A stretch of 64,000 nt of DNA from an uncultured Clostridia bacterium (GTDB lineage: Bacteria; Bacillota; Clostridia; Christensenellales; Borkfalkiaceae): contig CAJFTM010000048.1 of NCBI GenBank assembly GCA_904419945.1, positions 1 through 64,000 on the forward strand. The letters run 5' to 3'. The translations under genes and the position numbers were made by a program. Numbering within the stretch: the stretch's first letter is position 1; each line of letters opens with the position of its first letter. The notes below the pieces were generated by a model. It was not told the DNA's origin and did no database searches. It worked only from the letters and a program-made list of their open reading frames with translations. This document shows positions 2,700 to 18,544 of this stretch, piece after piece.

Positions 2700-4145
2700 A
2701 TGGGGTGGTTATCTTCTATCGGCGATATGCTTGTGAATTTGTGGGAGTCTTCCGGACTTGCCAACGGCGACTGGCAGAATTATGTCATGATCGTCGTTTC
2801 CCTCGTTCTCATGTATCTCGCCATCGTTAAAAAATTCGAGCCTTTGCTGCTCCTGCCGATCGCATTTGGTATGTTCTTGATTAACATACCCGGCGCGCAG
2901 AATATCGTATGGGGCAGGTATGAGGTAGGCATCAATCATGACGGTACGATTGAATATGCTGGCGTTTATCTCGATAAGTTGACGGATGCCATCATCTATG
3001 TACGCGACGGCTACCTCAACGGCGATGTGTTGACGTATTACGCGGACTTTGCGGCGCTGCAATCGGGAACGGCGACCACGCTCACCCTGACCGGAGATTT
3101 TTCCGAATTATACACCCTTCAGGGGTTTGTGCAGGGGAGCATTGAAAGCGGTAAGGCTGTTTTTGAAAGCGATGCTTTGATTTTGAGCCAAAGCTATATG
3201 GATGTAACAAACCGCGGGCTCTTGTGGTATTTATACTATGGTGTGGAAAATGTTATCTACCCGCCACTCATCTTTATGGGCATCGGTGCGATGACCGATT
3301 TCGGTCCGCTGATCGCCAACCCGAAGAGCATGCTGATCGGTGCAGGAGCGCAGCTCGGCGTATTTATGACCCTTGTAGGAGCTGTCATCCTTGGTTTTGA
3401 TGCCGCTGCAGCAGCTTCTATTGCAATTATCGGCGGAGCGGACGGGCCGACAGCTATCTACCTAACGCAGCAACTTTCGGGATTTACAAACGAAGATCTG
3501 CTCGCAACAATTGCGATTGCGGCGTATTCGTATATGGCTCTCATCCCGATCATTCAAAAGCCGATCATGAAACTTTTGACGACAAAAAAAGAGCGAGCCA
3601 TCAAAATGAAGCAGCTGCGAGAAGTAACCAAACTGGAAAAAATAATTTTTCCGATCCTTACTACGCTCATTGTCGGTTTATTATTACCGGATGCCATTCC
3701 GTTGCTCGGTATGCTCATGCTCGGCAACTTGATGCGCGAGAGCGGTGTCGTCGATCGGCTTTCCACGCAAGCGCAGAACGGGCTGATGAATACGATCACG
3801 ATCTTTCTCGGCGTTTCTGTCGGATGTAAAGCGGTCGGTACGACCTTCCTGACGGTTGATACGTTGTCCATCATTGCGCTCGGTTTGTTCGCCTTCTGCT
3901 TCGGCACGGTCGGCGGTTTGTTGACGGCAAAGGTCATGAATAAACTGTCCGGCGGAAAGATCAATCCTTTGATCGGCTCTGCCGGGGTATCGGCGGTCCC
4001 GATGGCCGCCCGAATATCGGAAGACGTTGGCCGGGAAGAAGATCCGAGCAATCACTTGCTGATGCATGCAATGGGACCGAATGTGGCTGGTGTCATCGGT
4101 TCGGCGATCGCCGCAGGGTTTTTATTGGCCTGCTTCGGCGGTTGA
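2700..4145 (+). CDS. oadB: Na+-translocating decarboxylase beta subunit
   Basis: A 481-residue polytopic membrane protein with the OadB/MmdB signature GGADGPTAIY (about 245-254), the segment that holds the Asp needed for Na+ transport. Family members decarboxylate carboxybiotin and couple this to Na+ export. Most are about 370-435 residues; here about 100 extra soluble residues (roughly 70-172) sit between the first hydrophobic segment and the core that resumes at LLWYLYYG. The insert is rich in Tyr, Thr, Asp and Gly and lacks membrane segments, so it is probably extracytoplasmic. The start follows a GGGTGA site. Family certain; whether the pump serves oxaloacetate or methylmalonyl-CoA is inferred. 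Confidence 0.92.
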   Translation: MGWLSSIGDMLVNLWESSGLANGDWQNYVMIVVSLVLMYLAIVKKFEPLLLLPIAFGMFLINIPGAQNIVWGRYEVGINHDGTIEYAGVYLDKLTDAIIYVRDGYLNGDVLTYYADFAALQSGTATTLTLTGDFSELYTLQGFVQGSIESGKAVFESDALILSQSYMDVTNRGLLWYLYYGVENVIYPPLIFMGIGAMTDFGPLIANPKSMLIGAGAQLGVFMTLVGAVILGFDAAAAASIAIIGGADGPTAIYLTQQLSGFTNEDLLATIAIAAYSYMALIPIIQKPIMKLLTTKKERAIKMKQLREVTKLEKIIFPILTTLIVGLLLPDAIPLLGMLMLGNLMRESGVVDRLSTQAQNGLMNTITIFLGVSVGCKAVGTTFLTVDTLSIIALGLFAFCFGTVGGLLTAKVMNKLSGGKINPLIGSAGVSAVPMAARISEDVGREEDPSNHLLMHAMGPNVAGVIGSAIAAGFLLACFGG

Positions 4146-4205
4146 TAAAAGAAAGAGGAGTTTCGCTTTCTTGCGATTCCGTCTGATTAAATTAGGAGAA
4201 TAGTA

Positions 4206-5621
4206 ATGGCTGAAAATAATGGAAAAAAAGTCATGATCACCGATACCATCCTTCGAGATGCGCACCAATCGCAAGCGGCAACACGTATGCGCACTGAAGA
4301 GATGTTGCCTGTTTTGGAACAGTTGGATGAGATCGGATATTATTCATTGGAAGCATGGGGAGGCGCAACATTCGATACTTGTCTGCGCTACCTCAATGAA
4401 GATCCTTGGGAGCGGCTCCGTACGCTGAAAAAGCACCTCAAGAAGACGCCGATCCAAATGCTCCTGCGAGGACAAAATTTGTTGGGGTATCGCCATTATT
4501 CGGATGATGTTGTAGAAAAATTTGTTGCAAAATCAATCGAGAATGGTGTCGGTATCGTTCGTGTATTCGATGCGCTCAATGATCCGCGAAATCTTGAAAC
4601 ATCCATCAAGGCGATCAAAAAATATGGGGGGATCTGTGAGGCGGCGATCAGTTATACAACCAGCCCCGTCCATACGACAGAATATTTTGTGCAGCTTGCC
4701 AAACAGTTGGAAAGTATGGGGGCGGATAATATCTGCATCAAAGATATGGCCAATCTCCTATTGCCGTACACCGCATATGACCTTGTATCCCGCCTGAAAA
4801 AGGAATTAAAGCCGGAGACAAAGGTGCATTTGCATACGCATAACACGGCGGGTACGGGCGATATGGTGAATCTGAAAGCGATTGAGGCAGGCGTCGATAT
4901 CGTCGACTGTGCGCTGTCTCCGCTCGGAAATGGCACCAGCCAGCCTGCAACGGAGCCGTTGGTTGCGACGCTTGCCGGAACTCCCTATGATACGGGTATC
5001 GATATCCATAAACTTTTACCGATCGTGGAACATTTTAAAGGGGTAGCGGAACGTTTGAAAAAAGACGGGTTCCTCTCGCCTAAAGTATTATCCATCGATA
5101 TCAACGCACTCATTTATCAAGTACCCGGCGGTATGTTGTCAAATCTTATCTCCCAACTCAAACAGCAGGGTAAATCAGATAAACTCGCAGAGGTATTAGC
5201 GGAAGTTCCGAATGTGCGAAAAGATTGCGGCTATCCGCCCCTCGTAACGCCTTCCAGCCAAATCGTCGGAACACAGGCGGTTTTAAATGTGCTTTCCGGT
5301 GAGCGCTATAAAATGGTCACCAAAGAATTTAAAGGCATTCTGCGCGGAGAATATGGCAAATTGCCTGCAGAACCCGATCCCGATGTCGTTAAAAAATGTA
5401 TCGGGGACGAAAAGCGCATTACCTATCGTCCGGCTGATGATTTGAAGCCGGAATACGAACAGTTCAAGGCAGAAATTGCCGAATATGTAGAACAAGAAGA
5501 GGATATACTCTCGTATGCAGTATTTGGACAAGTAGCGCTCAACTTCTTTAAATGGCGCAAGGCTGCGAAAGACGGGGTGGATAAAAACCTTACCGACGGC
5601 AGCGGCGTATATCCGGTATAA
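4206..5621 (+). CDS. oadA: OadA/5S-type carboxyltransferase, no biotin domain
   Basis: A 471-residue pyruvate/oxaloacetate carboxyltransferase: a TIM barrel opening with DTILRDAHQS and a conserved C-terminal cap. Visible metal/active-site elements are the first Asp, the barrel lysine in IKDMANLL and the His pair in HLHTHNTAG. The protein stops after the cap, so unlike full OadA or pyruvate carboxylase it lacks its own biotinyl domain and must use the carrier at 2330. This is the transcarboxylase 5S / PycB arrangement. Together the operon could move CO2 between oxaloacetate/pyruvate and an acyl-CoA, or decarboxylate through OadB. A terminator-like hairpin follows. Confidence 0.9.
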   Translation: MAENNGKKVMITDTILRDAHQSQAATRMRTEEMLPVLEQLDEIGYYSLEAWGGATFDTCLRYLNEDPWERLRTLKKHLKKTPIQMLLRGQNLLGYRHYSDDVVEKFVAKSIENGVGIVRVFDALNDPRNLETSIKAIKKYGGICEAAISYTTSPVHTTEYFVQLAKQLESMGADNICIKDMANLLLPYTAYDLVSRLKKELKPETKVHLHTHNTAGTGDMVNLKAIEAGVDIVDCALSPLGNGTSQPATEPLVATLAGTPYDTGIDIHKLLPIVEHFKGVAERLKKDGFLSPKVLSIDINALIYQVPGGMLSNLISQLKQQGKSDKLAEVLAEVPNVRKDCGYPPLVTPSSQIVGTQAVLNVLSGERYKMVTKEFKGILRGEYGKLPAEPDPDVVKKCIGDEKRITYRPADDLKPEYEQFKAEIAEYVEQEEDILSYAVFGQVALNFFKWRKAAKDGVDKNLTDGSGVYPV

Positions 5622-5628
5622 TCGTACA

Positions 5629-5675
5629 GCAGGGCAGGGATAGCTTGAGCTAAACTCTGCTCTGCCTGCATTTTT
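5629..5675 (+). terminator. Rho-independent terminator of the decarboxylase operon
   Basis: An 11-bp stem (5629-5639 with 5655-5665, two G-U pairs) extended by an inner TAGC/GCTA stem with a TTGA loop, then a T5 run at 5671-5675. It lies just after the OadA-like stop and 12 bp before the next start, so the flavoprotein gene may be partly read through. Confidence 0.6.
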
Positions 5676-5686
5676 GGATAATTGCC

Positions 5687-6901
5687 ATGAAGAAAGTGAT
5701 CGTGATCGGGGCAGGTGCCTCCGGATTGATGGCGGCATACGCAGCGGCCATACGCGGCCATGAGGTTCTCGTTCTTGAGCGGAATGAAAAAGCCGGTAAA
5801 AAGATTTACATCACGGGAAAAGGACGCTGTAATGTGACGAATGATGTGACCGCAGAAGATTTTTTCCCAAATGTCGTACACAATGCTAAATTTTTAAAAA
5901 GTTGCATATATCAATTTCCGCCGGAACGAATGATGCAGTTATTAGAAGACGGCGGGCTGCGGCTAAAAACAGAGCGAGGAAACCGTGTTTTTCCTGCATC
6001 GGATAAAGCGAGTGATGTCACGAAATGTCTTGAGCATTATTGTCGATCTGCAGGTGTTATCTTTTCTTTTACAGAACGAGTGCATGAAATTGAAGTTTTA
6101 CAAAGTACTCTGTTTCGCATAAAAACAGATAAAAGGATGCTGGAAGCTGATGCAGCGATTGTCTGCACGGGAGGAATTTCCTATCCAGCAACAGGGAGCA
6201 CGGGGGACGGATATATCTTTGCTCGCAATCTCGGTTTACACATCAAGGCTTTGCGTCCGGCGCTTTGCGGGATCGAGTGCATTGACTGTGAATCTTTACA
6301 GGGCTTATCGCTTAGAAATGTTTCTCTTGCGGCATATCAGGAAAGCCATAAAATTGCTTCATTTTTTGGCGAAATGCTCTTTACTCATTTTGGGATCTCA
6401 GGGCCCATTGCTTTATCTATGTCGAGTGTGATCAATGAGCGGGAGCTTTCTTCTGTGCGTTTATCTCTTGACCTAAAACCGGCTCTCGACGCGGCAATAC
6501 TTGACAAACGACTGCTGCGCGAATTTGACTCGCATAAAAATAGGCAAATCATACACGTTCTTGAAGAGTTACTTCCAAAGCGTATGATTCTGCCAGTGCT
6601 CAAACAAAGTGCGGTTCTGCCCACTACGCCTGTACATTCTGTCTCAAAAGCACAGCGTGCATCATTATTGCGGACATTAAAGGATTTTTCCTTATGGCCG
6701 CGATCCTTACGCCCAGTCGAAGAAGCAATCGTTACGGCTGGAGGAATTGATGTAAAGGAGATCGATCCAAAGACGATGCAATGTAAAAAATATAAAGGGC
6801 TTGCGTTCTGCGGAGAATTGCTCGACGTCGACGCCTTTACAGGCGGATTCAATTTGCAAATCGCTTTTGCAACAGGATATACCGCTGGAAATGCAATTTA
6901 A
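5687..6901 (+). CDS. BaiN/HI0933-family NAD(P)/FAD-dependent oxidoreductase
   Basis: A 404-residue flavoprotein of the YhiN/HI0933 family. It opens with the Rossmann motif VIGAGASGLMAA and the paired acidic residue in LVLERN, followed by the family signature GKGRCNVTN near residue 47, and ends with a second FAD-contact segment (GGFNLQIAFATGYTAG). Length is normal. Relatives are called BaiN in bile-acid-converting clostridia, but members are widespread and most have no proven substrate, so bile-acid activity should not be assumed here. It sits between the decarboxylase terminator and the cmk cluster. Confidence 0.88.
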   Translation: MKKVIVIGAGASGLMAAYAAAIRGHEVLVLERNEKAGKKIYITGKGRCNVTNDVTAEDFFPNVVHNAKFLKSCIYQFPPERMMQLLEDGGLRLKTERGNRVFPASDKASDVTKCLEHYCRSAGVIFSFTERVHEIEVLQSTLFRIKTDKRMLEADAAIVCTGGISYPATGSTGDGYIFARNLGLHIKALRPALCGIECIDCESLQGLSLRNVSLAAYQESHKIASFFGEMLFTHFGISGPIALSMSSVINERELSSVRLSLDLKPALDAAILDKRLLREFDSHKNRQIIHVLEELLPKRMILPVLKQSAVLPTTPVHSVSKAQRASLLRTLKDFSLWPRSLRPVEEAIVTAGGIDVKEIDPKTMQCKKYKGLAFCGELLDVDAFTGGFNLQIAFATGYTAGNAI

Positions 6902-15323: not shown

Positions 15324-15422
15324 TGGTTTAAAAAATTTACTTAAAGAGAAACGCTAAGAAAAATTTTGAGGTAGTGGATAACGCAAGCATGTTTGTTGCT
15401 TTAGTAGTGGAGAAACAAGACG

Positions 15423-15482
15423 CACCAAACACTGCGTAAAACGCGACTTTTACGCAGTGTTTGGTGTATTTTTCGCAGTGTT
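15423..15482. repeat. 19-bp palindrome with three AACACTGCG/CGCAGTGTT copies
   Basis: Arms 15423-15441 and 15448-15466 pair perfectly over 19 bp around a 6-nt loop, followed on + by TATTTTT. The core 9-mer AACACTGCG is at 15428-15436, its complement at 15453-15461, and a third copy in the same orientation as the second at 15474-15482, exactly 21 bp further. It may be a terminator for the protease operon (minus strand, T-rich beyond), but the extra spaced copy suggests a protein-binding or recombination site. The flanks, 15324-15422 and 15483-15535, hold nothing recognisable. Confidence 0.6.
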
Positions 15483-15535: not shown

Positions 15536-15751
15536 ATGATTCGTTTTTATGTTAAGGTTCTCAAGGCTCGGCAGTCTGGCAATGCGTATGCTCAGCTGTT
15601 CGTTGGTCTCGGTTATCGCGTCGTGCGTCTCGACAAAAATTGCAGTTTTTACGACTTGATTCCTGAGCTTTGCGGGTATCGTGATTTGGACGATCTCTTG
15701 GAAGCTCATCCTGTCGATGACGTCATCACGCTTGCCGAATTTATAAAATAA
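15536..15751 (+). CDS. Small protein of unknown function (71 aa)
   Basis: A 71-residue ORF on the strand opposite its neighbours. The ATG at 15536 has GGAG 11 bp upstream; an in-frame ATG at 15461 lies inside the palindrome and is unlikely. Composition looks protein-like: a basic beta-rich start (MIRFYVKVLKARQSGN), then YAQLFVGLGYR and an acidic C-terminal part that could be a short helical domain. I do not recognise a family with confidence; it resembles small proteins seen on mobile single-stranded DNA elements, but that is an impression only. It overlaps the 3' end of the protease gene by 11 bp. Confidence 0.5.
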   Translation: MIRFYVKVLKARQSGNAYAQLFVGLGYRVVRLDKNCSFYDLIPELCGYRDLDDLLEAHPVDDVITLAEFIK

Positions 15752-17648
15752 TGACGCCGTTTCCGCTTTGATTGTGTTCCACGGCCTCCAAAAAAGATAC
15801 CGCATAAGACGCAGGAATTGCCCAACTGACATTTTCATACCCATAGTCAGATACGAGCTCGCCGCCAAGACCTAGCGTGTTGATACCGACAACGCGACCG
15901 GATGCATCGAATAACGGACCTCCTGAATTACCTCCGTTGATTGGACAATCTGTTTGAATCATGTCATAACCATATTCATCTCTGTATCTCGCAAAATTGG
16001 GTACAGATACGACGCCGGACGAAATAGCAACGCCATAAGCAACACCGTTGCCGATCGCATAAACCTTTTCACTGCGTTCAGGCAAAGTTGAATATAATTC
16101 GCAAGCCTCAATAAAACCATCAATTACACCGAACTCGGTCTCTGTGCGAATTGTATTTTGGAAACGCAGTACGGCAAGATCTCCTTGTTGCTGATACGCA
16201 ACAATATCCATTGGTAACAAGATAAATCTCCCCAATAAATCAGTTCCGCGCTCAAAAACGCAGTACACAGAAATTCCGTTTAAATCAACTGTTGTATTCG
16301 CATTTCCTGTAGCTATTTGATTTTGTTCAGCTAATTTGTTAAGCACATGTAAGTTCGTTAAAACAGTTCCGTCTGTATCGACAAGGAAACCGCTGCCTTC
16401 TGACAATCCGATGACCGATTCGCTGCCGATATGATCAAAGTAAACAATAATTTTAACTGTTTTGTCTAAATTATTACCGGCGATATACTGTGCATTCGTT
16501 GCCTTTTGATCAACATCATAACCCTGTTTAGAAAAAACAACTTCAGATGCTGCCGAAGCGACAAAATAGTCAGTGCTGCCAATATACTCACTAATCATAT
16601 TTGCTACGGCTGGGCGACGGCGCATCAATATCTGGGCAACGGGGTCTGTTGCCATCTCAATTGTATCGGCATTTTGAATGATACTGTCTCCCGCATTTGA
16701 TGTTGCGGACGATTCTTCATACACAATTTCAAGTGCTGCTTCCGCAAGAATATCTCGAATATTGGAAGATGGTATAGCAAAAGAAATTCCAAAAGCATCA
16801 CTTTGTGCATAACGCGCAGTCGTTTCCGCTTTACGATTGATCAGCCCGATAACTTTTCCCTCCGCATTTAGTAACGGAGCGCCTTCATTCCCAACATTTG
16901 TTTGGACGCTCGTTTGAATCAAATAAGTAAAAGATCCGTCAAAAAAGTGACTCCCATCTGCATAATCAAATGCTGATGCATGTGTATTAAATGGCTTAGA
17001 AACAATGCCAGATGAAGCAAATCCTGACCGAACACCTTGATCATTGAGAATGCATCCAATCAATAAACAATTTTCCCCATACTCTAATACGTCAGAATCG
17101 GCAAACGACAATGCCTGCGGTATACTGCATTCCTGCCCCATCAGCGAAGTATATTTGCCTTCTGCGGTTCCGTCAACGGATAAAACCGCAATATCTGCGT
17201 TCGCAACCGCAAAATCCGGAACGCCTTCTCCTACCCGATAAAACCATCCGAAAGGTCCCTTAGCACTATAGCCATATAAACTTGCAACAGCAGAATTACC
17301 ATCTGCAAAAGTCACAGACAATGACAGCTGCGTATTCATATCGACAACAAGTGAAGCCGATGTTAAAATATACCCGTTTGAATCATCAATTATAAAGCCG
17401 CTTCCGTAGGACGGCTCACCATTAGGCCGCGTTATTTGGATGGTAACAACGCTCTCTGCAGCAACTTGATATGCTTCTGTAAAATCTGTATCCCGTGAAG
17501 ATGTCGGCATATATTCAATTTCATGACGGTTGTTGAAAATTGTTTGATTGCTCTCAGAATTTGCGCATGCTGAAAACATAAAAACGAGACTGCTGCTTAT
17601 GGCGAGAATCCATGCGCAAATTTTTAATGATCGATAAAATTTTCTCAT
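15741..17648 (-). CDS. Tandem trypsin-fold lipoprotein, first domain dead, second active
   Basis: A 635-residue exported lipoprotein with a signal sequence ending in lipobox FSAC (Cys28). Two chymotrypsin-like (HtrA-type) domains follow, without PDZ domains. Domain 1 (about 60-300) keeps Asp152, but the His motif TNxHV reads TSAS (His to Ser99) and the Ser motif GNSGGP reads GNEGAP (Ser to Glu255), so it cannot cleave peptides by the usual triad. Domain 2 (about 365-635) is intact: His434 (TNLHV), Asp490 (GDLAVL) and Ser575 (GNSGGP). The start overlaps the previous gene by 4 bp (ATGA). A surface protease with a regulatory or scaffold pseudo-domain is the likely design. Confidence 0.88.
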   Translation of the reverse strand: MRKFYRSLKICAWILAISSSLVFMFSACANSESNQTIFNNRHEIEYMPTSSRDTDFTEAYQVAAESVVTIQITRPNGEPSYGSGFIIDDSNGYILTSASLVVDMNTQLSLSVTFADGNSAVASLYGYSAKGPFGWFYRVGEGVPDFAVANADIAVLSVDGTAEGKYTSLMGQECSIPQALSFADSDVLEYGENCLLIGCILNDQGVRSGFASSGIVSKPFNTHASAFDYADGSHFFDGSFTYLIQTSVQTNVGNEGAPLLNAEGKVIGLINRKAETTARYAQSDAFGISFAIPSSNIRDILAEAALEIVYEESSATSNAGDSIIQNADTIEMATDPVAQILMRRRPAVANMISEYIGSTDYFVASAASEVVFSKQGYDVDQKATNAQYIAGNNLDKTVKIIVYFDHIGSESVIGLSEGSGFLVDTDGTVLTNLHVLNKLAEQNQIATGNANTTVDLNGISVYCVFERGTDLLGRFILLPMDIVAYQQQGDLAVLRFQNTIRTETEFGVIDGFIEACELYSTLPERSEKVYAIGNGVAYGVAISSGVVSVPNFARYRDEYGYDMIQTDCPINGGNSGGPLFDASGRVVGINTLGLGGELVSDYGYENVSWAIPASYAVSFLEAVEHNQSGNGVIIL

Positions 17649-18544
17649 TCTGCCACCTCTGAGATTGCAACTGTATATGGAATCGGAATTTGCAATTTTG
17701 CAGAAACTTTCTCTAAATAATCAAGTAAAGATTTTACGCCGATTCCACGTGTCGCATTTTCAGTAAATGTCCAGTTGCCCCCCTCATCAACTTGCTGCAA
17801 TTTTTCAGAAATCAGGCCAATCATATAGCCATTTTGATCCAAAATTGCGCCGCCATACATTTCCGGACTTACGGCGGCCGTGATAAAAAGAGAATCGTCG
17901 ACATCGTCAACGAAAGCCACAATGCCACTCGTCACCGAACGATAAAAATATTCTGCAATATATGGAAATTGTACTTCATTGATTACATTGCCGACGGCAT
18001 TTCCAATAGCAAAACAACTTTGACCGGGTACGTCCGCTGACGCAAATTCAGCGACGATCGGAAATCCCTCAACTTCGGCGCCATCATTTTCAGAAATGTA
18101 AAATTGATCATAAAACAAAAATAGGGAGAGTCCGCTCTCCTCATCCAAATTGACGATTTCCAATCGATAGAGTGCATTATTAGCCCCATATGCCTCCGGT
18201 AATACAGCATATACGGCCGTCCATGTACCGGTATATGTTTCACCGTTTTCGTCCACATATGTTGGCCGCGCGGCAAACTCTGTCGAAAGGACATAGCCCT
18301 CCCGATTGATGATAACACCAGATGTTACGTTGACGATCGTTCCAAATTCCATCTCCGCAGAAAAACTTCCGATAGAGACTAACGAAACTACCGCATCCTG
18401 CCTGCGTGTAAAAATGTCCGTTCCTTGAGACACATCACCTGCACTATTATACTGCAAATGAACCTTTACCGGCAACTCGGTTCGCAATACGAAAGCTGAG
18501 CATCCTCCAAGTAAAAGTAAAATGAACGAAAGGATAAGTTTCAT
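17645..18544 (-). CDS. Trypsin-fold pseudoprotease lipoprotein
   Basis: A 299-residue protein with a short signal peptide and lipobox LLGGC (Cys15). The body looks like one trypsin-fold domain related to its neighbour: SGVIINREGYVLSTE corresponds to the region that normally holds the catalytic His, but the His position is Phe90; CFAIGN corresponds to the conserved Gly-Asn segment; and EMYGGA stands where GNSGGP is expected, so Ser is Tyr230. Catalysis is therefore not expected. It is translationally coupled to the double-domain protease (4-bp overlap), suggesting a partner, inhibitor or substrate-binding role. The 24-bp motif copy C lies just upstream. Confidence 0.75.
   Translation of the reverse strand: MKLILSFILLLLGGCSAFVLRTELPVKVHLQYNSAGDVSQGTDIFTRRQDAVVSLVSIGSFSAEMEFGTIVNVTSGVIINREGYVLSTEFAARPTYVDENGETYTGTWTAVYAVLPEAYGANNALYRLEIVNLDEESGLSLFLFYDQFYISENDGAEVEGFPIVAEFASADVPGQSCFAIGNAVGNVINEVQFPYIAEYFYRSVTSGIVAFVDDVDDSLFITAAVSPEMYGGAILDQNGYMIGLISEKLQQVDEGGNWTFTENATRGIGVKSLLDYLEKVSAKLQIPIPYTVAISEVAE

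Follow-up and report, generated by a model that had tools for sequence, protein, structure and literature searches.

A conserved gene pair for two lipoproteins with two inactive and one intact HtrA-type domains in a genus of Clostridia

A pair of lipoprotein genes with three HtrA-type domains

The stretch of DNA analysed here (the window) comprises 64,000 nucleotides from an uncultured Clostridia bacterium and carries, on the minus strand, two overlapping genes that we call A (17645..18544) and B (15741..17648). Gene A encodes a 299-aa lipoprotein with the lipobox LGGC15, one HtrA-type fold and no catalytic residues, and gene B a 635-aa lipoprotein with the lipobox FSAC28 and two HtrA-type domains. 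Each protein begins with a signal peptide that ends in the lipobox, and among homologues the lipobox Cys is invariant in B (C28) and nearly so in A (C15). The stop codon of A and the start codon of B share a 4-bp ATGA (17645..17648), through which translation of the two genes may be coupled. Along the minus strand, B is divided into an inactive domain 1 (approximately residues 52–312, 16713..17495), an interdomain linker with the lowest conservation within the protein (approximately residues 313–385, 16494..16712), and domain 2 (approximately residues 386–632, 15753..16493). The open reading frames, their strand, the overlap and both lipobox cysteines had been described in an earlier note made from the letters of this DNA, and all were as given there.

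The Pfam family Trypsin_2 matches A once (5.8e-9) and B as two stretches (5.9e-40), and in sequence comparison HtrA proteases are the nearest solved proteins to B. The absence of PDZ domains, also claimed in the earlier note, agrees with the lack of any Pfam PDZ match in A or B, and the B chain ends just past domain 2. A strong hairpin of 20 pairs (15422..15467) lies between B and the recombinase gene that follows it; the hairpin has a T-rich tail on the plus strand, with a weaker one on the minus strand, and is likely the terminator of the A-B unit. Its arm sequence has no other occurrence in the window. A plus-strand open frame of 71 aa (15536-15751) runs towards the end of B and shares 11 bp with it; this frame has no Pfam match and no homologue among the related loci compared.

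AlphaFold models of A and B were computed as single chains, with 21 natural sequences in the input alignments, and were confident, with a pLDDT of 85.8 and a pTM of 0.84 for A, and 86.5 and 0.85 for the full two-domain chain of B. Modelled A resembles the protease domains of DegP and DegS at Z 22–23 (top Z 23.0, DegP), residues from approximately 50 to 307 of B (domain 1) resemble HtrA1 (highest Z, 24.9), DegQ and DegP, and residues from approximately 381 to 631 (domain 2) resemble DegP at Z 25.2. As the models of all three domains match HtrA proteases, A and B together are predicted to hold three HtrA protease folds (Z 23–25 to DegP, DegS and HtrA1), in keeping with the trypsin folds that had been read from the sequence.

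In A the triad positions are occupied by F90/G138/Y230, with E228 at the position of the oxyanion Gly. Domain 1 of B has S99/D152/E255, retaining the Asp, and has Gly253 in its oxyanion loop, and domain 2 carries the complete triad H434/D490/S575 within which the Ser motif is GNSGG. The residues previously named at the His and Ser positions of A and of B domain 1, and the triad of B domain 2, were right; to these we add that the Asp is also lost from A (G138) and is kept in B domain 1 (D152). Conservation of these sites was counted over 23 analysable A-B pairs. The triad is incomplete in every A protein among them: Gly stands at the Asp position in 23/23, Ser is never found at the Ser position (0/23), a non-Gly residue replaces the oxyanion Gly in 22/23, and the His position holds E, S, D, Q, A, H, F, T or L, with His in two of the 23. 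Since the His and Ser positions of A vary, there is no fixed repurposed site at them. A complete triad is likewise found in none of the 23 copies of B domain 1, where the His position is mostly Ser and the catalytic Ser gives way to Glu or another residue (Ser in 0/23), while the Asp is retained in 21/23 and the oxyanion-loop Gly in 22/23. Judged by these residues, A is dead throughout, whereas B domain 1, lacking His and Ser, retains more of the groove. The intact triad that marks the HtrA/Deg group (S1C) is thus present only in B domain 2, where H/D/S and GNSGG are invariant (23/23), and not in A or B domain 1. B position 552, which corresponds to the Arg of loop L3, is F, M or another non-Arg residue in all 23 pairs, and MucD has Arg at the aligned position. 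In other HtrAs the L3 Arg relays activation, so any activation relay in B domain 2 must differ.

Distribution, selection and origin of the pair

The source genome (1.68 Mb in 49 contigs) falls in a genus to which MAGs named Candidatus Borkfalkia also belong; the host genus is Candidatus Borkfalkia or close to it. Strong homologues of B are present in 23 of 40 genomes of the genus and in one genome of another genus in the family. When related genomes were searched for the same gene pair, a check proposed in the earlier note, all 24 genomes with B were found to have an adjoining A; one further genome (G022) has an A gene at a contig end. The pair is missing from 16/40 genomes of the genus and is thus dispensable. 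Across a sample of 301 genomes from the family, A was matched only in the source genus (g1) and in genus g12, besides a weak match in g16 (8.7e-11) that covers part of an HtrA-like frame only. A scan of GTDB contigs with the B sequence alone found no relatives; the B alignment did work as a query. From these searches the pair appears to be confined to two genera of the family, its own (Borkfalkia-type MAGs) and one other.

The spacing between A and B ranges from -8 to +27 bp, with exactly -4 in 8 of the 23 pairs in which it was measured. Most of the neighbourhood is common to these loci, with genes for glycogen phosphorylase and an amylase on the A side and for a tyrosine recombinase and a GTPase of HflX type on the B side. 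Three genomes that lack the pair have the amylase gene directly beside the recombinase gene, with no HtrA remnant between them, which indicates that A and B are missing as a unit.

Mean identity among homologues is 37% for A, 40% for B domain 1, 26% for the linker and 49% for B domain 2, and the matched frames contain no internal stop codon. Where it could be computed, dN/dS is 0.07–0.22, a rough value because dS is near saturation. In a tree of 72 HtrA domains, A, B domain 1 and B domain 2 each form one group, and A is placed with B domain 2 (99/96) and B domain 1 apart, on long branches; alternative groupings of A with B domain 1 (p-AU 0.171) and of B domain 1 with B domain 2 (0.129) were not rejected. 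A family of the same order (f8; genomes G067 and G096) also has neighbouring lipoproteins, a 267-aa dead HtrA (Y/G/F) and a 279-aa active HtrA, encoded at 4576-5379 and 5382-6221 of locus L061 and at 3789-4592 and 4595-5434 of locus L062. These resemble A-B in being adjoining dead and active HtrA lipoproteins, but the active f8 protein is single-domain. The tree groups the dead f8 protein with its own active neighbour (91/81), and a grouping of A with the dead f8 protein was again not rejected (p-AU 0.325). Parallel and shared origins of the f8 pair and A-B both seem compatible with these tree tests.

Relation to known protease-pseudoprotease systems

By layout, the closest known system is CspBA/CspC of Clostridioides difficile and Paraclostridium bifermentans, in which two coupled genes encode three subtilisin-fold domains, one of them active (PMC6199464, PMC6464247). 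As in A-B, two of the three protease domains are dead, and one of these two shares a chain with the active domain. The dead domains of CspBA/CspC regulate, and those of A-B would have the same role. Csp proteins, however, have the subtilisin (S8) fold, a spore location and a role in germination, whereas A and B are HtrA-fold lipoproteins for which no link to sporulation was found. The arrangement also differs, as the active domain of the fusion is N-terminal in CspBA and C-terminal in B, and the gene for the dead single-domain protein lies downstream in the Csp locus and upstream (A) here.

By fold, and in having a dead HtrA that aids an active one, the nearest precedent is MamO/MamE of magnetotactic bacteria, where the dead HtrA MamO activates MamE-dependent proteolysis by an active HtrA and carries a surface di-histidine metal site (PMC4794232). 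In both systems a degenerate and an active HtrA come from one gene region, and the oxyanion Gly (position 193) is lost from MamO as it is from A. Unlike A, which has a lipid anchor and no domain added to its single HtrA fold, MamO carries a C-terminal transporter domain and binds metal in the formation of magnetite; a second dead domain, fused to the active one, is found only in B.

The precedent for a dead domain within the chain is plant Deg7, which has one active and one degenerate HtrA domain per chain, with the dead one involved in trimerization (PMC3473262, citing Schuhmann et al. 2011). In Deg7 the active domain is N-terminal and the dead one C-terminal, four PDZ domains are present, and no second gene supplies a dead partner; B has the reverse order and no PDZ. 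A and B share the fold of HtrA/Deg (S1C) proteases and lack their usual C-terminal PDZ, which is usual but not universal among HtrAs, plant Deg5 having none (PMC3473262).

Taken over their sequences and models, A and B are not fully matched by any one of these systems, each of CspBA/CspC, MamO and Deg7 having a defining feature that A and B lack. A literature search on HtrA pseudoprotease lipoproteins in Firmicutes turned up nothing that corresponds to A-B. The earlier note's impression of an undescribed layout therefore stands for this precise arrangement, with three HtrA domains spread over two lipoproteins and no PDZ, which was not found in the literature searched, and has to be tempered by the functional precedents.

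Possible roles of the inactive domains

We suggest that A and B are probably a conserved membrane-anchored pseudoprotease-protease pair of HtrA type, in which the dead folds scaffold or gate a single active site. Two copies are dead in every related species with the pair, which suggests that these conserved dead copies steer the one working protease. The earlier note's proposal that pseudoprotease domains serve one active domain is favored to this extent by conservation, co-occurrence and predicted fold. Each protein would be held by its lipid anchor at the outer surface of the cell membrane, and the two would assemble as a hetero-oligomer. The dead domains would act on B domain 2 without catalysis, as neighbours that shape its activation loops; they may also offer a binding surface for substrate or ligand, and would fill the role that PDZ domains have in ordinary HtrAs. 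HtrA1 subunits activate one another independently of PDZ (PMC5666011), and this, together with the part taken by the dead domain of Deg7 in trimerization, makes it conceivable that dead neighbours shape B domain 2. The HtrAs of S. pneumoniae and other Gram-positive bacteria are monomers according to PMC12745498, so the logic of the trimer may not carry over; the lack of the L3 Arg in B domain 2 likewise speaks against a trimeric form. A more specific version, offered only tentatively, has A and the two domains of B assemble into a pseudo-trimer, the counterpart of the HtrA homotrimer, with a single working site among the three and the dead subunits as sensors replacing PDZ; if true, an HtrA equivalent of CspBA/CspC would have been reached independently, in a different protease fold.

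Few bacterial pseudoproteases have been studied, and a genus-wide, PDZ-free pair with one live and two dead HtrA domains would give a handle on the non-catalytic contribution of neighbours within an HtrA assembly. Steering by the dead domains would also show that the Csp logic of 'two dead, one live' has arisen in common gut bacteria with a protease fold unrelated to that of Csp. The genome has two other HtrA lipoproteins, both with full triads, and these have a long C-terminal region past the protease domain that A and B lack. They are themselves a tandem pair (G000:C8, L072 3839-5266 and 5244-7010), the second protein of which has a long KDGQDG-rich, collagen-like stretch.

Among the alternatives, the one with some appreciable chance of being right is that the dead domains are surface adhesins, receptors or binders of metal or other ligands, co-expressed with the protease as independent parts, much as MamO has a metal role. 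Pseudoproteases can acquire unrelated binding roles (PMC4794232), and A is the fastest-diverging of the three domains (37% identity), with variable His and Ser positions. Independence fits poorly with the finding that B never occurs without A, and A without B only at a contig end, and with the union of domains 1 and 2 in one chain whose whole model is confident (pTM 0.85). We consider it improbable that B domain 1 and A present substrate to B domain 2, or hold it in an inhibitory, zymogen-like clamp that is removed by proteolysis. The Asp (21/23) and oxyanion-loop Gly (22/23) kept in B domain 1 mean that its groove may still bind peptides, and variation is greatest in the linker (26% identity), as such a clamp might have it; but no cleavage motif or prodomain was found, and the separate lipid anchors of A and B fit a stable complex equally well.

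Local decay, by which A and B domain 1 would be redundant duplicates losing function and kept by chance, has the least to recommend it of all. Dead-site residues do differ between species and 16/40 genomes of the genus lack the pair; against this, open frames are intact and lipoboxes and folds conserved in all homologues, the change from Asp to Gly in A is invariant, there are signs of purifying selection, and A and B co-occur fully across a genus in which synonymous sites are close to saturation. The conservation of the dead sites, which the earlier note had put forward as a check on this point, contradicts local decay, with full triads in 0/23 copies of A and 0/23 of B domain 1.

A spore or germination module like CspBA/CspC, with dead domains restraining the active protease until a germinant is sensed, is also very unlikely, slightly more so than the clamp. 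Csp loci share the logic of A-B, and the genome has Spo0A above the curated cut-off. Yet the fold is that of trypsin and HtrA rather than the subtilisin fold of Csp, the genes around the pair are of glycogen/amylase, recombinase and HflX-like types, none of them for spores, and SpoIVA-like genes occur in 38/40 genomes of the genus, with or without the pair, so that the pair does not track sporulation. In most genomes of the genus the SpoIVA-like proteins (for example G000:C11:21009-22019, locus L168, and those of L170 and L171) match the profile only from approximately position 140, their N-terminal ATPase part looking shortened, and a minority of genomes match it in full length. In the protein of L171 the P-loop Lys looks replaced (GPPACGRH).
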